A stretch of DNA of 51,091 nt from Cytophagaceae bacterium (lineage in GTDB: Bacteria; Bacteroidota; Bacteroidia; Cytophagales; Spirosomataceae). A model generated the notes under the pieces. The model had not been told where the DNA came from, searched no databases, and was given only the letters and a program-made list of their open reading frames with translations. The stretch is taken from NCBI GenBank assembly GCA_027491195.1, contig JAIXWQ010000002.1, positions 1 through 51,091 on the forward strand. Reading direction: 5' to 3'. This document shows, piece after piece, positions 7,187 to 40,632 of the stretch; position 1 is the stretch's first letter; each line of letters opens with the position of its first letter. The position numbers were made by a program, and so were the translations under genes.

Positions 7187-7216
7187 TTGGCTTGCCCACA
7201 TAAAGCCGTATTTTTG
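7187..7216 (+). promoter_or_regulatory. Bacteroidota-type promoter for rlmD
   Basis: TTG (7187-7189), 19 bases, then TATTTTTG (7209-7216) match the TTG/TAnnTTTG promoter known for Bacteroidota sigma-A. The rlmD ATG at 7234 follows after 17 bases, leaving a very short leader. Confidence 0.65.
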
Positions 7217-7233
7217 TGCACATTTTTAGCAGC

Positions 7234-8661
7234 ATGAGTAAGAAAAAAGAAAAGAAAGCCCCGGTGGTGTTGGAACAAATTGCCATTTTGGATTTTGCCG
7301 CAGAGGCAAAGTGTATTGCCAAAGTGAACGATGAAGTGATTTTTGTACAAGGAGCAGTCGCTCCCGGTGATATTGCGGATTTACGCATTTTGAAGTCGAA
7401 GAAAAGTTTCAAACAAGCGCAAGCAATTAATATTCAACCACTTTCAAAGCATCGCACGGAGGTGGCCTGTAGTCACTTCGGTATTTGCGGTGGCTGTAAA
7501 TGGCAACATGTTTCTTACGAATCCCAAACTGCTTTCAAAGCGCAGCAAGTCAAAGATAATCTGACACGTATCGCAAAAGTGAAGTTGCCTGAATTTCAGC
7601 CCATTCTAGGCTCAGAAGAGACTTATTATTACCGCAATAAATTAGAATTCACCTTTTCTTGTGCGCGTTGGCTGACGGAAGATGAAATTGGAAAGGAAGA
7701 TTTAGGGTCGATGAACGCTCTGGGTTTCCACGTTCCGGGTCGTTTTGATAAGATTTTGCCCGTTGATCATTGCTATTTACAACCGGATCCTTCGAATGCC
7801 ATACGCAACGGAGTACGCGATTTTGCAGACGCAAATGGTATCTCCTATTATGAATTGAAAAACCAGCAGGAAGGCGCCTTGCGGAATTTGATCATCCGAA
7901 ACACGGTTACCGACGAATGTATGGTGACAGTGCAGTTCGCCTATGCCACAGAGGATGAAATCAAACTGGTGATGGATTATTTGAAATCTAACTTTCCGAT
8001 GATTACCTCATTGAATTATGTGGTAAACCAAAAAGGTAACGACACCTTCCATGATTTAGAAGTCGTTTGTTACCACGGTAAGCCTTTCATGCTGGAAACG
8101 ATGGAGGATTTGAAGTTCCAAATAGGCCCCAAATCCTTTTTTCAAACCAATGCCAAACAAGCGCTCAAACTATACCAATTAGTTCGTCAATATGCTGACT
8201 TACAAGGCAATGAGGTGGTTTATGATCTATATACTGGAACGGGAACAATTGGCTTATTTTTAGCTAAGTACGCTTCTAAAGTAGTTGGACTTGAATATGT
8301 CGAAATGGCCGTGGAAGATGCACGAATCAACGCGGAAATAAATGGTATTAAAAATGCCACCTTCTTCGCAGGAGATATGAAAAAAGTCTTGACGGAAGAA
8401 TTTATCGCTGTCCATAGAGCCCCGGACGTCATAATCACGGATCCTCCGCGCGCCGGAATGGACCTTGATGTAGTCAACCAAATTCTAACCGTAAAGCCGA
8501 AGAAGATTGTGTATGTTAGCTGCAACCCCGCTACCCAAGCACGTGATCTAGCCTTGTTGGATGTGGCTTACGAGGTGGATGTAGTTCATCCGGTGGATAT
8601 GTTCCCACAAACGCACCATGTGGAGAATATTGTTCGCCTGAAGTTAAAGCACAAAGAATAG
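7234..8661 (+). CDS. rlmD: 23S rRNA (uracil(1939)-C5)-methyltransferase RlmD
   Basis: A SAM-dependent methyltransferase of the TrmA/RlmC/RlmD family that makes m5U in 23S rRNA. It has an N-terminal TRAM-like domain (about 15-70), the Fe-S cysteines C-S-H-F-G-I-C-G-G-C-K-W, a SAM-binding fold with D-L-Y-T-G-T-G-T-I-G, the D-P-P-R-A-G motif, and the catalytic cysteine in Y-V-S-C-N-P-A-T. The start at 7234 is chosen because an upstream ATG at 7216 overlaps the promoter. Which uridine (747 or 1939) is modified cannot be proven by sequence. The last codons (K-H-K-E-stop) are formed by the heptad repeat starting at 8646. Confidence 0.93.
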   Translation: MSKKKEKKAPVVLEQIAILDFAAEAKCIAKVNDEVIFVQGAVAPGDIADLRILKSKKSFKQAQAINIQPLSKHRTEVACSHFGICGGCKWQHVSYESQTAFKAQQVKDNLTRIAKVKLPEFQPILGSEETYYYRNKLEFTFSCARWLTEDEIGKEDLGSMNALGFHVPGRFDKILPVDHCYLQPDPSNAIRNGVRDFADANGISYYELKNQQEGALRNLIIRNTVTDECMVTVQFAYATEDEIKLVMDYLKSNFPMITSLNYVVNQKGNDTFHDLEVVCYHGKPFMLETMEDLKFQIGPKSFFQTNAKQALKLYQLVRQYADLQGNEVVYDLYTGTGTIGLFLAKYASKVVGLEYVEMAVEDARINAEINGIKNATFFAGDMKKVLTEEFIAVHRAPDVIITDPPRAGMDLDVVNQILTVKPKKIVYVSCNPATQARDLALLDVAYEVDVVHPVDMFPQTHHVENIVRLKLKHKE

Positions 8662-8685
8662 AGCATAAAGCATAAATATGGAAGC

Positions 8686-8711
8686 AAAAAGGGCGATTTT
8701 TCGCCCTTTTT
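8686..8711. terminator. Bidirectional terminator between rlmD and dnaB
   Basis: An 11-bp perfect stem (8686-8696 with 8701-8711; core GGGCGA/TCGCCC) with a TTTT loop. T-runs form on both strands, so it can end both convergent transcripts. Confidence 0.85.
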
Positions 8712-8726
8712 GTATTTCAGAAATGT

Positions 8727-8741
8727 ATTCCCGAAGGGAAT
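8727..8741. repeat. GAA-triloop hairpin inside locus A
   Basis: ATTCCC, GAA, GGGAAT: a 6-bp perfect stem with a three-base GAA loop and no T-run. Hairpins with the same loop recur in the other heptad elements (37502-37524, 37542-37558, and 40633-40659 read on the minus strand). Confidence 0.6.
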
Positions 8742-8788
8742 TCCAACTCTGTTCTTTTTGCTTTGTTCTTTGAACTTTATGTTTTAAA

Positions 8789-11460: not shown

Positions 11461-11893
11461 GATTATTCAGGCAATCAGCCAGGAAGAAATTGATCAAGTT
11501 TTCGCCATTCGGACAGAGGTTTTTGTCAAAGAGCAAAAGTGTCTTCCTTCCGAGGAATTTGACGAATTAGACGCAGTAGCTAATCATTATCTTTTACTAG
11601 AAAATGAGATACCCGTCGCAACTGGACGTTATCGAAAAACCGAAAAAGGTATTAAAGTGGAGCGCATTGCCACTTTAGAAACAGCAAGAGGCAAAGGTTA
11701 TGCCTCTTTGGTGGTGAACCATATCATTGCTGAAGCCACAACCGCTTATCCTGATTGCAATTATCTCTATCTGCACGCACAGGTTTCCGTGATGCCACTT
11801 TATGCCTCTTTAGGTTTTGTACCCTATGGAGGGAGGTTTGTAGAGGCGGATATTGAGCATCAAGCGATGGGGTTAACAGTCGCTAGTCACTAG
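11441..11893 (+). CDS. GNAT family N-acetyltransferase
   Basis: A 150-residue acetyl-CoA-dependent acyltransferase. The fold is visible as F-A-I-R-T-E-V-F-V-K-E-Q near the N-terminus, V-A-T-G-R-Y-R, V-E-R-I-A-T-L and the acetyl-CoA loop A-R-G-K-G-Y-A-S, followed by Y-L-H-A-Q and L-Y-A-S-L-G-F. This is the ElaA-like branch of GNAT; the substrate is unknown. Its ATG lies inside the phoH 3' end, so the two are probably translationally coupled. Its stop codon TAG (11891-11893) and the three codons before it are made of AGTC heptad repeats. Confidence 0.88.
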   Translation: MESKINRIIQAISQEEIDQVFAIRTEVFVKEQKCLPSEEFDELDAVANHYLLLENEIPVATGRYRKTEKGIKVERIATLETARGKGYASLVVNHIIAEATTAYPDCNYLYLHAQVSVMPLYASLGFVPYGGRFVEADIEHQAMGLTVASH

Positions 11894-12018
11894 TCGAAAG
11901 TCGCTAGTCACTAGTTCAAAATCGTTATTAACACTCAATTAATCATAAAAAAAGCCAGAACGATGTCCCGGCTTTAAATATTTTTCGACTAGTGACTAGT
12001 GACTAGTGACTATCGACT
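11878..12018. repeat. Inverted tandem-heptad element, AGTCNNN family, locus D
   Basis: The left arm (11878-11926) runs in exact 7-bp steps: AGTCGCT, AGTCACT, AGTCGAA, AGTCGCT, AGTCACT, AGTTCAA, AATCGTT. The right arm (11984-12018) on the plus strand is TTCGACT, three AGTGACT, ATCGACT, so its complement is AGTCGAT, three AGTCACT, AGTCGAA. A terminator-like stem lies between the arms. TAG stop codons of both flanking convergent genes lie in the arms. The design matches loci A, B and C, with a different heptad. Confidence 0.75.
11951..11975. terminator. Terminator-like hairpin inside locus D
   Basis: AAAGCC (11951-11956) pairs with GGCTTT (11970-11975) over a 13-base loop, flanked by A-runs on the left and T-rich sequence on the right. 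It is weaker than the other terminators here and may be reinforced by pairing of the flanking heptad arms. Confidence 0.55.
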
Positions 12019-12385
12019 AGAATGGTAAATCATCCCCACTCTCAGCCGCTAATGGAGGGAATTGGTATCCGCCCGCTGCTGGTGTAGGTTCCACTCCTGC
12101 TGGAATTGATCCTGTGCGATCTAAACGATAAGCACGGATTTCGGTATACCAGCGCTCGTTGTATTCTCTTGATTCTACGTTGAATTGAACTTTTACGATT
12201 TCACCTTCTTGAACTGGCGATAAATCTTGTGTTTTATCTCCCCAAACTGACATACAAACCTTCTTAGGATATTGATCTTGTGTTTCGATCACGAATTCTT
12301 GTTTGATCCAGTTGGTACCATTTTTACCTGTTCCTGTAACCTCAGGTAATTTCTTGATTAATTTTCCGCTTATTTCTAAAGCCAT
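12017..12385 (-). CDS. DUF3127 protein, OB-fold/SSB-like with DDLPF tip
   Basis: A 122-residue protein starting M-A-L-E-I-S-G-K-L-I-K-K-L. The body has the DUF3127 pattern: G-T-N-W-I-K-Q-E-F-V-I-E-T, a strand-rich middle with V-C-M-S-V-W-G-D-K, and E-R-W-Y-T-E-I-R-A-Y-R. A Pro/Ala/Gly-rich linker leads to the C-terminus E-S-G-D-D-L-P-F. The acidic, Pro-Phe-ending tail closely resembles the tip of single-stranded DNA-binding protein (D-D-D-I-P-F), which recruits replication and repair proteins. DUF3127 has no settled function; nucleic-acid binding is inferred. The frame stays open 12 codons upstream, but the ATG at 12383-12385 fits the family start. Confidence 0.85.
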   Translation of the reverse strand: MALEISGKLIKKLPEVTGTGKNGTNWIKQEFVIETQDQYPKKVCMSVWGDKTQDLSPVQEGEIVKVQFNVESREYNERWYTEIRAYRLDRTGSIPAGVEPTPAAGGYQFPPLAAESGDDLPF

Positions 12386-12446: not shown

Positions 12447-12458
12447 TAACCGTTTTTG

Positions 12459-12540
12459 GCGATGTGGTGAAATTGGTAGACACGCTACCTTGAGGTGGTA
12501 GTGCCGTTAAGGTTTGGGAGTTCGAATCTCCCCATCGTCA
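12459..12540 (+). tRNA. tRNA-Leu (anticodon GAG)
   Basis: An 82-base cloverleaf. The acceptor stem is GGCGATG with CATCGTC (one G-T pair) and discriminator A12540. The D-arm is in the G-A-A-A-T-T-G-G-T-A-G-A form typical of leucine tRNA. The anticodon stem is CTACC/GGTAG with loop TTGAGGT and anticodon GAG at 12492-12494, reading CUC and CUU. A short class II variable arm and a T-arm with GTTCGAATC follow. CCA is not encoded. trhO begins 27 bp downstream, so it may be cotranscribed. Confidence 0.96.
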
Positions 12541-36104: not shown

Positions 36105-36128
36105 ATGGCGGGTTTTCCCGCCATTTTT
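36105..36128 (+). terminator. Terminator of the GSII gene
   Basis: ATGGCGGG (36105-36112), TTTT loop, CCCGCCAT (36117-36124), then TTTT. A strong intrinsic terminator immediately before the mtaB promoter. Confidence 0.88.
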
Positions 36129-36132
36129 GTTT

Positions 36133-36140
36133 TACCTTTG
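36133..36140 (+). promoter_or_regulatory. Candidate -7 element (TAccTTTG) for mtaB
   Basis: TACCTTTG ends 16 bases before the ATG, a typical distance here. No TTG lies at 17-23 bases upstream because the GSII terminator occupies that place. Confidence 0.45.
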
Positions 36141-36156
36141 CAACCTGATTTCAGGT

Positions 36157-37476
36157 ATGAAAAAAGTCGCTTTTTACACGTTAGGATGCAAATTGAATTT
36201 TGCAGAATCTAGTTCGATCGCTCGGTCTCTTGAGCCGATGGGATTTGCGCGCGCAGAATTTCAGGATAATCCAGATTTATTCGTGATTAATACCTGTAGC
36301 GTCACCGAGCAGGCAGATAAGAAGTGTAAGAAAGTCGTTCGGGAGGCGAAGAAAGTCAACCCTGCATCCACAGTTGTTATTATAGGTTGTTATGCTCAGT
36401 TAAAGCCGGAGGAAATTTCGGCCATTCCGGGTGTTGATTTAGTTTTAGGTGCGAATGAAAAGTTCCAATTGCCAGAACTGCTTCCCCCCTATTTAAATCG
36501 CGTTTCAGCTGATCTTCCTAAATTAATAGCTTCTGAAATTCGATATGATTTAGATTATCATGCCTCTTATTCTGTGAATGATCGCACTCGCACCTTCTTG
36601 AAAGTGCAGGACGGCTGCGATTATCCTTGCTCCTATTGCACGATTCCACTAGCACGTGGTCAGTCTCGTTCAGATACCGTTGAGAAAGTGTTAGGTTTAA
36701 TTGAGGAGATCTCTGCCAAAGGTGTAAAGGAAATTGTCCTTACTGGAGTGAATATTGGGGATTTTGGTATTCAAAATGGGAAAAGAGTGGAGACCTTTTT
36801 TCAATTAGTTAAGGCGATTGAAGAAAAGTCGAGTATTCAGCGTTTCCGTATTTCGTCTATCGAGCCTAATTTATTGACTTCGGAGATGATCACCTTTTTA
36901 GGTGCTTCGAAGAAGTTTGTTCCGCATTTTCATATACCGCTTCAATCTGGATCTAATTCGGTATTGCGTTTGATGAAACGTCGGTATCAACGTGAATTAT
37001 ACGAGGATCGAGTGACTTCAATTAAGGAGGTGATGCCCAATGCTTGCATTGGGGTCGATGTGATCGTGGGTCATCCAGGTGAAACACCTGAATTGTTTTT
37101 GGAGACTTATGAGTTTTTGAACTCGCTGGATATTTCGTATTTACACGTTTTTCCTTATTCTGAGCGTCCTAATACCTATGCGGTAGATATTAAGCCGAAA
37201 GTGGATGGGATGCAAAAAGCGGAACGTTCTAAAATGCTTCATATTCTGTCGGATAAAAAACGCCGCGCCTTTTATGAGTCTCAAGCTGGTTTAAAAGGTC
37301 AGGTTTTATTTGAAGAATCAGCCGTTCCTGGAACGATGGAAGGTTTCTCAGAGAATTATGTACGCGTGGTGGTTCCTTTTGACCCTTTGCAGATTAATAC
37401 CATTCAAGAAGTGAGGTACAAGACCGTGAATGAGAATGGGGAAATGAGTGGCGTGGTATTGGAGTATAAAGCATAA
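36157..37476 (+). CDS. mtaB: tRNA t6A37 methylthiotransferase MtaB
   Basis: A 439-residue radical-SAM enzyme that adds the 2-methylthio group to t6A37 of tRNAs reading ANN codons. An N-terminal UPF0004 domain (Y-T-L-G-C-K-L-N-F-A-E-S, I-N-T-C-S-V-T, G-C-Y-A-Q) carries the second Fe-S cluster, then radical SAM C-D-Y-P-C-S-Y-C, then a TRAM-like end. The length and L-G-C-K-L-N favour MtaB over MiaB. The ATG at 36157 gives the family start; the frame opens 30 bp earlier. The last codons Y-K-A-stop come from heptad repeats. Confidence 0.93.
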   Translation: MKKVAFYTLGCKLNFAESSSIARSLEPMGFARAEFQDNPDLFVINTCSVTEQADKKCKKVVREAKKVNPASTVVIIGCYAQLKPEEISAIPGVDLVLGANEKFQLPELLPPYLNRVSADLPKLIASEIRYDLDYHASYSVNDRTRTFLKVQDGCDYPCSYCTIPLARGQSRSDTVEKVLGLIEEISAKGVKEIVLTGVNIGDFGIQNGKRVETFFQLVKAIEEKSSIQRFRISSIEPNLLTSEMITFLGASKKFVPHFHIPLQSGSNSVLRLMKRRYQRELYEDRVTSIKEVMPNACIGVDVIVGHPGETPELFLETYEFLNSLDISYLHVFPYSERPNTYAVDIKPKVDGMQKAERSKMLHILSDKKRRAFYESQAGLKGQVLFEESAVPGTMEGFSENYVRVVVPFDPLQINTIQEVRYKTVNENGEMSGVVLEYKA

Positions 37477-37501
37477 AGCACAAAGAATAAAGTTTGATTT
37501 C

Positions 37502-37524
37502 AAAAAGCGGCGAAGCCGCTTTTT
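37502..37524 (+). terminator. GAA-loop terminator of mtaB
   Basis: AAAAAGCGGC (37502-37511), GAA, GCCGCTTTTT (37515-37524), then more T. A 10-bp perfect stem closed by the GC-GAA-GC loop, with a long T-run. Confidence 0.85.
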
Positions 37525-37541
37525 TTTGTTTCTGAAGAGTT

Positions 37542-37558
37542 AATCGGCGAAGCCGATT
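37542..37558. repeat. Second GC-GAA-GC hairpin in locus B
   Basis: AATCGGC (37542-37548), GAA, GCCGATT (37552-37558): a 7-bp perfect stem with the same loop and closing bases as the hairpin 40 bp upstream, but with no T-run, so it is not a typical terminator. Confidence 0.65.
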
Positions 37559-37625
37559 CCATCTTTATGCTTTATTCTTTGTGCTTTATACTTTTACTTT
37601 TGTTTTTGATCATCATCGCAAAACA

Positions 37626-40465: not shown

Positions 40466-40486
40466 AGTCGCTAGTCGGGAGTCGAT
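40466..40486. repeat. One-armed AGTCNNN heptad remnant, locus E
   Basis: AGTCGCT, AGTCGGG, AGTCGAT in exact 7-bp steps. These are the same family as locus D at 11.9 kb. No opposing arm was found nearby; it lies 18 bp before the AAAG-type element at 40504. Confidence 0.6.
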
Positions 40487-40539
40487 TGACTTATTTTGAG
40501 AATAGAGCATAAAGCATAAAGAATAAAGAATAAAGTAGG

Positions 40540-40556
40540 TATCACCTGTGGTGATA
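40540..40556. repeat. TGT-loop hairpin in locus C
   Basis: TATCACC (40540-40546), TGT, GGTGATA (40550-40556): a 7-bp perfect stem with a three-base loop and no T-run. Confidence 0.55.
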
Positions 40557-40582
40557 ATCTCATGAAATGTTTGGATATAAAA

Positions 40583-40602: not shown

Positions 40603-40632
40603 CAATATTTATTCTTTATGCTTTATTATTTA

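Follow-up and report, generated by a model that had tools for sequence, protein, structure and literature searches.

Inward-pointing arrays of 7-bp repeats at gene ends in a Cytophagaceae genome: shared sites, changing words and a hairpin module linked to AAAG arrays

Heptanucleotide tandem repeats lying between genes are reportedly known from cyanobacteria as STRR heptads and small dispersed repeats, described by Mazel in 1990 and Elhai in 2008. In Xanthomonas, GGGAATC heptads form convergent pairs near the 3' side of ORFs, and their function is given as unknown (PMC4692102). Direct repeats of TAACTGA occur in Beggiatoaceae, Cyanobacteria and some Bacteroidetes, and the main genome described carries 169 direct sets as against one indirect repeat (PMC4679880). 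A proposal that 7 nt fits the polymerase is reported in both papers, which leave unanswered why the unit is 7 nt, why the arrays are paired and how they spread. REP and BIME elements, together with the literature on RAYTs (PMC2817692) and REPINs (PMC8049555), form a further point of comparison. The genus considered here comprises dozens of genomes, so that sites, repeat words and an associated hairpin module can be traced junction by junction, which makes the question testable.

The window, i.e., the whole stretch of DNA that was analyzed, is 51,091 nt long and comes from a source genome (G000) of 2,488,393 bases (2.49 Mb) in 14 contigs. At the 3' end of mtaB, hereafter locus B, it carries the following features.

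37468..37492, + strand: left heptad array, AAAGCAT AAAGCAC AAAGAAT AAAG, overlapping the end of mtaB (sequence, tandem-repeat search)
37474..37476, + strand: TAA stop of mtaB (ORF 36127-37476), within the array (ORF reading)
37502..37527, + strand: terminator-like hairpin, AAAAAGCGGC GAA GCCGCTTTTT, and T run (inverted-repeat search)
37522..37566, - strand: degenerate 45-nt module, AAAGWWGGA-hairpin-spacer-GAAATGTTT, in which GAAATGTTT is not intact (R1 alignment; as one of the 26 R1 training sequences, this copy belongs to the model by construction)
37542..37558, - strand: module hairpin, AATCGGC TTC GCCGATT, with a GAA triloop on the + strand (sequence)
37563..37594, - strand: right heptad array, inverted, CTTT five times every 7 bases (sequence, tandem-repeat search)

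Re-reading of the sequence, together with repeat and inverted-repeat searches, bore out the repeat design set out in the first-pass annotation. The left arm steps in 7-nt register, CTTT stands at 37563, 37570, 37577, 37584 and 37591 in the right arm, and 18 nt of the left arm (37475-37492) match the reverse complement of 37570-37587 exactly. The arms enclose two GGC-GAA-GCC hairpins, at 37502-37524 (with the T run reaching 37527) and 37542-37558, and the repeat forms the final codons and the stop of mtaB (TAT AAA GCA TAA, ending at 37476). The best-scoring arm pair spans 25 nt at 96%, and Tandem Repeats Finder reports a period of 7 for both arms. The same design had been noted at 8646, at 11878 (with a different heptad) and at about 40504, and is indeed present at all three loci, the right arm of the last being degenerate.

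8645..8676, + strand: left array at the 3' end of ORF 7216-8661, which ends ...KLKHKE* within the array (sequence, tandem-repeat search)
8706..8750, - strand: 45-nt hairpin module adjoining the right array, an R1 training member (R1 alignment)
8754..8778, - strand: right array, reading AAAGTTC AAAGAAC AAAGCAA AAAG on the - strand (sequence)
11878..11915, + strand: left array of a second word, AGTCGCT/AGTCACT (sequence, tandem-repeat search)
11987..12020, - strand: right array of the second word, GACTAGT (sequence, tandem-repeat search)
40466..40485, + strand: short array of AGTC-type heptads, outer to the AAAG array (sequence, junction comparison)
40503..40537, + strand: left AAAG array where two tandem (-,-) genes meet (sequence, tandem-repeat search)
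40532..40576, + strand: 45-nt hairpin module with intact motif TGAAATGTTT, an R1 training member, E 6e-5 (R1 search)
40606..40632, - strand: degenerate right array (sequence, tandem-repeat search)

The only Rfam match at gathering score in the window is a tRNA gene at 12458-12540 (53 bits).

Locus B is one member of a large family of 7-bp arrays with a mosaic make-up. A run of three AAAGNAN units (AAAGNANAAAGNANAAAGNAN) has 78 + 70 = 148 matches in G000, compared with 0 + 0 for the reversed pattern, and the heptads are therefore far above chance frequency. A de novo scan for tandem periods of 4-15 in 139 kb from 31 loci of the genus returned 16 arrays of period 7, 6 of period 14 and none of any other period, a tally in which some arrays are counted twice since L071 and L072 apparently derive from the same genomes as L158 and L163; on stretches of G000 the same scan also returned two period-15 arrays. 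Period 7 was again the commonest (9) in 700 kb of loci from other Bacteroidota, with 7 arrays of period 14 and 0-3 of each other period. As in the heptanucleotide LSSR/STRR class, 7-nt tandem units are thus over-represented relative to other unit sizes and are mainly intergenic, with 17 of 158 raw array calls falling within ORFs drawn by a simple ORF caller.

Besides AAAG, the words found in the genus include TAGTCAC, GGTAAGA, AAGAGTG, AGACGTT, TTAGGGA and AGAATGT. Whole-genome counts of triples in G000, G007, G008 and G030, respectively, were 148, 27, 32 and 85 for AAAG; 1, 57, 116 and 1 for CAGTA; 11, 19, 11 and 0 for AATGGT (for which the reversed control is an unclean null, because TGGTAA is also present in these arrays); and 27, 6, 2 and 0 for TAGAG. 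A clean lineage-specific vocabulary consequently holds for AAAG and CAGTA in the comparison of G000 with G007, fails for TAGAG and is weak for AATGGT. Nor do AAAG arrays mark the entire phenomenon, as several genomes without them carry other words. CAGTA and AATGGT recur far outside the clade (CAGTA 55 times in G038 and 26 times in G052; AATGGT 27 times in G055 and 20 times in G005), and such recurrence in other families of the order could reflect either transfer or a limited set of workable words. Spread of the AAAG word into G038, a member of another family, was considered and discarded: AAAGTAA arrays account for most of its 92 matches and the module was not found there, so that another word is the more likely source. 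Arrays of other words were also seen in Pedobacter, Rufibacter, Hymenobacter and further Bacteroidota, the Rufibacter locus (word TAGTTGT) being again a facing pair. In G022 (L188:2270-2371), about 14 CTCTTAC units lie between two - strand genes and touch a stop, and no second array was found nearby. Arrays of other words in these Bacteroidota lie as follows.

L085:5438-5483, strand not given: heptad array
L104:3690-3986, strand not given: heptad array
L111:3033-3161, strand not given: heptad array
L119:9175-9214, strand not given: heptad array
L121:8310-8350, strand not given: heptad array

Neighboring arrays point inward. Among 67 pairs of neighbors less than 200 nt apart in one gap (G000 and G007, five words), 40 face each other, 27 point the same way and 0 diverge, the sign of each word having been set by hand from left arms (five binary choices); the result is a mosaic of inverted units between genes, as in REP/BIME. 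A word-blind rule (more G than C) gave 21 facing, 11 same-direction, 2 diverging and 1 undecided in G007, where the two diverging cases are, by word, one facing and one same-direction. It gave 6 facing and 1 same-direction in the genus outside the clade, and 3 and 4, respectively, in other Bacteroidota, while in G038 (word AAAGTAA) a count by reading of clusters within 500 nt gave 12 that face and none that diverge. Diverging neighbors do exist beyond 200 nt, for example at a distance of 486 nt in G007 and of 717 nt in G000, and the inward rule is therefore limited to close neighbors.

Relative to genes, the word is in sense in 72 of the 74 arrays at 3' ends in G000 and G007 (more weakly in other Bacteroidota, with 10 sense versus 3 antisense), and arrays at 5' ends point away from the gene in 21 of 25 cases. 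Since the inward rule holds at 5' ends too, polarity belongs to the gap rather than to transcription alone. Arrays lie a median of 7 nt from the stop (lower quartile -2; n = 74, all within 60 nt); because they overlap or hug stops in this way, the C-terminal residues of MtaB and of the product of ORF 7216-8661 are encoded by the repeat. By a strict criterion, the window and 20 stretches of G000 contain 26 facing pairs and 11 singles, some of which (e.g., 40511) have a degenerate partner; the stretches were taken from among the AAAG matches listed, and their array counts therefore favor the AAAG word. Genes flanking the 26 pairs, as delimited by the simple ORF caller, are convergent in 18 cases, ++ in 4, -- in 2 and -+ in 2. 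In 916 kb of G007, arrays are densest in convergent gaps (30 in 13.2 kb) and rarest in divergent ones (9 in 21.3 kb).

Orthologous 3' ends, which the first-pass annotation had suggested comparing, are often occupied by arrays at the same sites, yet often with different words, which it had not foreseen. The window is syntenic with eight relatives (G014 and G008 over part of it only), and array junctions differ between species. Where its 42 gene junctions could be compared, arrays occur only at junctions 3, 5, 8 and 32 (convergent) and 34 (--). Those at junction 3 are confined to G015 and G033; this convergent gap measures 60 nt in G000, 401 nt in G015, with more than 30 facing AGAATGT/ATTCTAC units (L215-L217), and 205 nt in G033. 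Locus B is junction 32, which carries AAAGCAT in G000, TAGAGAG/TATAGAT-like words in G014, G008 and G002, CAAAGTT/CAAAGAG in G019 and G027, AGTCCGG in G007, and a left arm AGTCGCT with a right arm GGTAAGAG in G012; G015 and G033 have no array there, in a gap of about 100 nt. Four words thus occupy locus B across the clade: AAAGCAT, its relative CAAAGTT, TAGAGAT and AGTCCGG. At junction 34, AAAG arrays (on both sides or the left), module and terminator are kept in four of five clade members, the left arm in G014 being AAAG and the right arm ATCTATA/CTCTACT. The right arm of this junction reads, in register over five species, CTTTATG, CTCTATG and CTCTACT, with length differences of whole units, and in G019 the array and module are tandemly duplicated.

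The same holds on a larger scale. Thirteen of the 37 G000 rows, two of which are one junction, are directly comparable with 916 kb of G007, and 11 of the 13 have another word or repeat there. Of 181 junctions, 62 are comparable between the two genomes: 11 are occupied in both, 4 in G000 only, 0 in G007 only and 47 in neither (p = 2.7e-9). Both genomes thus have arrays at 11 of the 15 occupied junctions; at the four where only G000 has them, inspection by eye shows weaker arrays or other kinds of repeat in G007. None of the 20 divergent junctions is occupied. The 11 doubly occupied junctions have the same word set in 3 cases, one common word in 2 and no common word in 6. Word turnover thus separates what is kept (place, period and polarity) from what is not (sequence and exact pairing), which argues against a simple selected stem and points toward a copying process.

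Just inside many AAAG arrays, and in register with them, lies the 45-nt module, consisting of AAAG, a WWGGA-like stretch, a hairpin of the form AT-CGCC-TTC-GGCG-AT in many variants, about 8 nt, and TGAAATGTTT, which begins near position 28 after AAAG. Some array loci have hairpins on both sides, and in some a terminator hairpin replaces one of them. In alignment A1 (26 rows, i.e., 28 detected minus two judged false), 20 cells are changed on both sides of the stem compared with 5.1 in shuffles, a count biased by the selection of rows for a perfect stem; AAAG-N28-GAAATGTTT was therefore searched independently of the stem. In the 10 module-bearing genomes this pattern matched 31 times (reversed control 0), and 30 of the matches hold, by reading, a hairpin between the flanks; these hairpins comprise several sequences and include one with a mismatched pair and one with a 4-nt loop, and the only match without a hairpin is G019:C1:357223. 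Both results indicate a palindromic hairpin kept by compensatory changes, as in REP/BIME. The 49 other genomes gave 20 matches (reversed control 25), none with the module. Four of those 20 (G024, G033, G020 and G015) share a common terminator, AAAGGGCCTC..GAGGCCCTTTTTTTAT, followed by CGAAATGTTT, possibly through orthology or by chance.

Model R1 identified at least 210 modules, all in 10 of the 59 genomes searched, and none in the other 49; as scoring was limited to 106 candidates in each genome and the filters were strict, a weak copy elsewhere could have escaped. The counts, which are lower bounds, are 44 in G000 (up to 26 of them by construction), 7 in G002, 11 in G007, 6 in G008, 15 in G014, 27 in G019, 13 in G021, 34 in G023, 18 in G027 and 35 in G030. 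Within the genus, the R1 carriers are exactly the genomes with more than one AAAG-pattern match. Seven of the nine other carriers have a full-length MtaB at 92-95% identity (G021 and G030 gave no full-length match), as against at most 85% in the remaining genus members, and the module therefore marks one subclade. A hairpin inside the arrays of every word, conceived as a GNA triloop, was rejected: with AAAG it is found at 32 of 57 inner and 12 of 57 outer ends, compared with 4 of 84 inner and 8 of 84 outer ends for the other four words. Separately, the centers of several array pairs (G007 blocks; L042, L043 and L044) contain AGTCCGAAGGAAATG, a small repeat of about 15 nt, and AGTCGGCTTCGCCTTAGTC-type hairpins, both of which look like further interspersed families.

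The first-pass annotation had offered three readings, namely a REP/MITE-like mobile unit, a strong structured 3' end and replication slippage, and each of them, like its interpretation as a whole, finds partial support. Our own preference, which we hold tentatively, is for a BIME-like mosaic in which sites persist while their words are renewed through slippage and copying between loci. The family would then be a genome-wide mosaic of inward-pointing 7-bp arrays, densest between the stops of convergent genes, with sites that are long-lived and inherited and words that are shorter-lived. Units may expand, contract and homogenize in 7-nt steps by slippage, and words and inner contents, such as the 45-nt module, may be copied between loci, most likely by short-homology template switching or gene conversion initiated within arrays. 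Under such exchange the inner part would be swapped, with the gene flank outside it and the inward direction preserved, which would account for close neighbors that do not diverge, for lasting sites with changing words and for mosaics of several words. No direct exchange with donor and recipient was caught, and recent copying within G000 is not supported by the module copies, which are only moderately similar (mean column identity in A1, 69%). This reading is also weakened by a vocabulary that is not cleanly lineage-specific, by the recurrence of words in distant genomes and by the sharing of words between arms in G007. Since locus B can form a long hairpin that encloses a terminator, it probably affects 3' ends mildly, and for the family we would expect a mild function or none.

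A possible, though on balance unlikely, alternative is a MITE-like element, in which a transposase would act in trans to move both inverted arrays together, whether or not they include the module; it would prefer gene ends or the centers of older pairs, and the different words would be families of elements nesting in one another. The annotation's mobile unit is favored by the dispersed palindromic mosaic with its hairpin module, the latter present in 10 species. The right-side module at junction 5, present in G000 and G019 and absent in G007, the tandemly duplicated array and module of G019, the mosaics of several words, the sharing of a word by both arms in 14 of 23 G007 regions and the identical words in distant genomes all fit such an element as well. 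Transposition of whole pairs would explain dispersal and the distant recurrence of words, but it predicts empty sites and side-by-side pairs. The latter would give a diverging order, which was seen in 0 of the 67 close neighbors, and the two species have arrays at the same junctions (p = 2.7e-9) rather than at random ones. Neither a target-site duplication nor a fixed outer end was seen by eye in comparisons between species, the outer ends being fuzzy. The tetranucleotides of REP/BIME are likewise scarce, with GTAG at the foot next to the array in 6 of the 26 aligned modules and CGTC in none. For the Y1/RAYT transposase that accompanies the GTAG class, a search with PF01797, the sole family searched, found no match in the 10 carriers, which are 73-99% complete (six below 90%); matches occur in 27 of the 59 genomes, and many non-carriers of the genus also have none. 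Transposition by Y1/RAYT is accordingly unsupported.

A selected 3'-end device appears doubtful. Here the G-rich strand would be sense after the stop and the C-rich, G-poor strand would face read-through, the array acting as a stem, a 3' stabilizer or a Rho loading site that halts transcription into the neighboring gene. Rho loading sites are C-rich and G-poor. The density between convergent and rarity between divergent genes in G007, the 72 of 74 arrays in sense at 3' ends and the retention of sites while words change are in keeping with such a device, although depletion from divergent gaps is expected of neutral insertions too, and a rule based on transcripts predicts nothing for the 5' ends, where 21 of 25 arrays also obey the inward rule. 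Locus B folds at -57.1 kcal/mol (z -9.4), which lends the annotation's structured 3' end some support; a facing pair of one word is, however, bound to fold into a strong hairpin. The annotation further placed the arrays around a terminator, which is true of locus B and, by a script rule, of 11 of the 26 pairs, i.e., fewer than half, compared with 11% of 1500 random intergenic 75-mers; the other 15 pairs have no terminator-like hairpin. Its view of exact complementarity as a trait of the locus did not hold: in G000, arms score 19.3 with their own partner and 19.1 with permuted partners (26 pairs, p = 0.33), so that partners within a locus match no better than arms taken from separate loci and locus-specific pairing is rejected there, with no sign of selection for exact pairing. 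In G007, a well-matching pair of arms is present in 14 of 23 regions (p = 0.013; neighbor pairs p = 0.015) and absent in 9, and mosaics occur, for instance with AAAG followed by AATGGT on the left and CAGTAG on the right; this weak sharing of words within loci would also suit paired insertion or selected pairing.

A bolder and improbable reading supposes that gene ends contain a slot governed by fixed rules, namely units of 7 nt, inward polarity and a G-rich strand directed away from the gene, and that the words in it are rewritten at many loci as lineages diverge. If true, it would imply dedicated machinery, tuned to the 7-nt period, that copies or reads the slot, as a parallel in bacteria to the concerted evolution of satellites; this would be either a transposition/gene-conversion cycle without a Y1 transposase or factors whose changing binding words drag the sites along. 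Finally, purely local slippage at gene ends, with independent loci and arms made alike by template switching across the central hairpin, is very improbable, since the 7-nt register, the whole-unit length differences between orthologues and the published polymerase proposal fit it but slippage alone does not put the same word at dozens of loci per genome, where a relative has other words at many of the same loci, nor does it give a common inner module, and arms in G000 are no more alike within than across loci.

Compared with known systems, the family belongs to a known kind, since paired inverted heptads have been described in Xanthomonas (PMC4692102). In the literature searched (titles and abstracts, with most subscription journals outside its scope), we found no report of word replacement at orthologous junctions, nor of inward polarity counted across words or of a hairpin module linked to AAAG arrays. 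The Xanthomonas heptads are of one G-rich word capable of forming G-quadruplexes, whereas here several words per genome replace one another at junctions, inward polarity extends across words and a module accompanies one of them. The TAACTGA repeats resemble the present family in being heptamer arrays, patchy over phyla, and in that most indels separating two close strains are 7-nt steps; they differ in that the main genome has one word, mostly just upstream of start codons and unpaired around gene ends (PMC4679880). REP/BIME elements are similarly dispersed small palindromes that form mosaics and inverted pairs, chiefly in gaps flanked by convergent or unidirectional ORFs, and the CGTC class of REPs is likewise described as having no dedicated transposase (PMC3733652). 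The family at locus B differs from them in its few GTAG and absent CGTC tetranucleotides, in the lack of a Y1/RAYT match in its carriers and, above all, in consisting largely of tandem heptads whose word changes.
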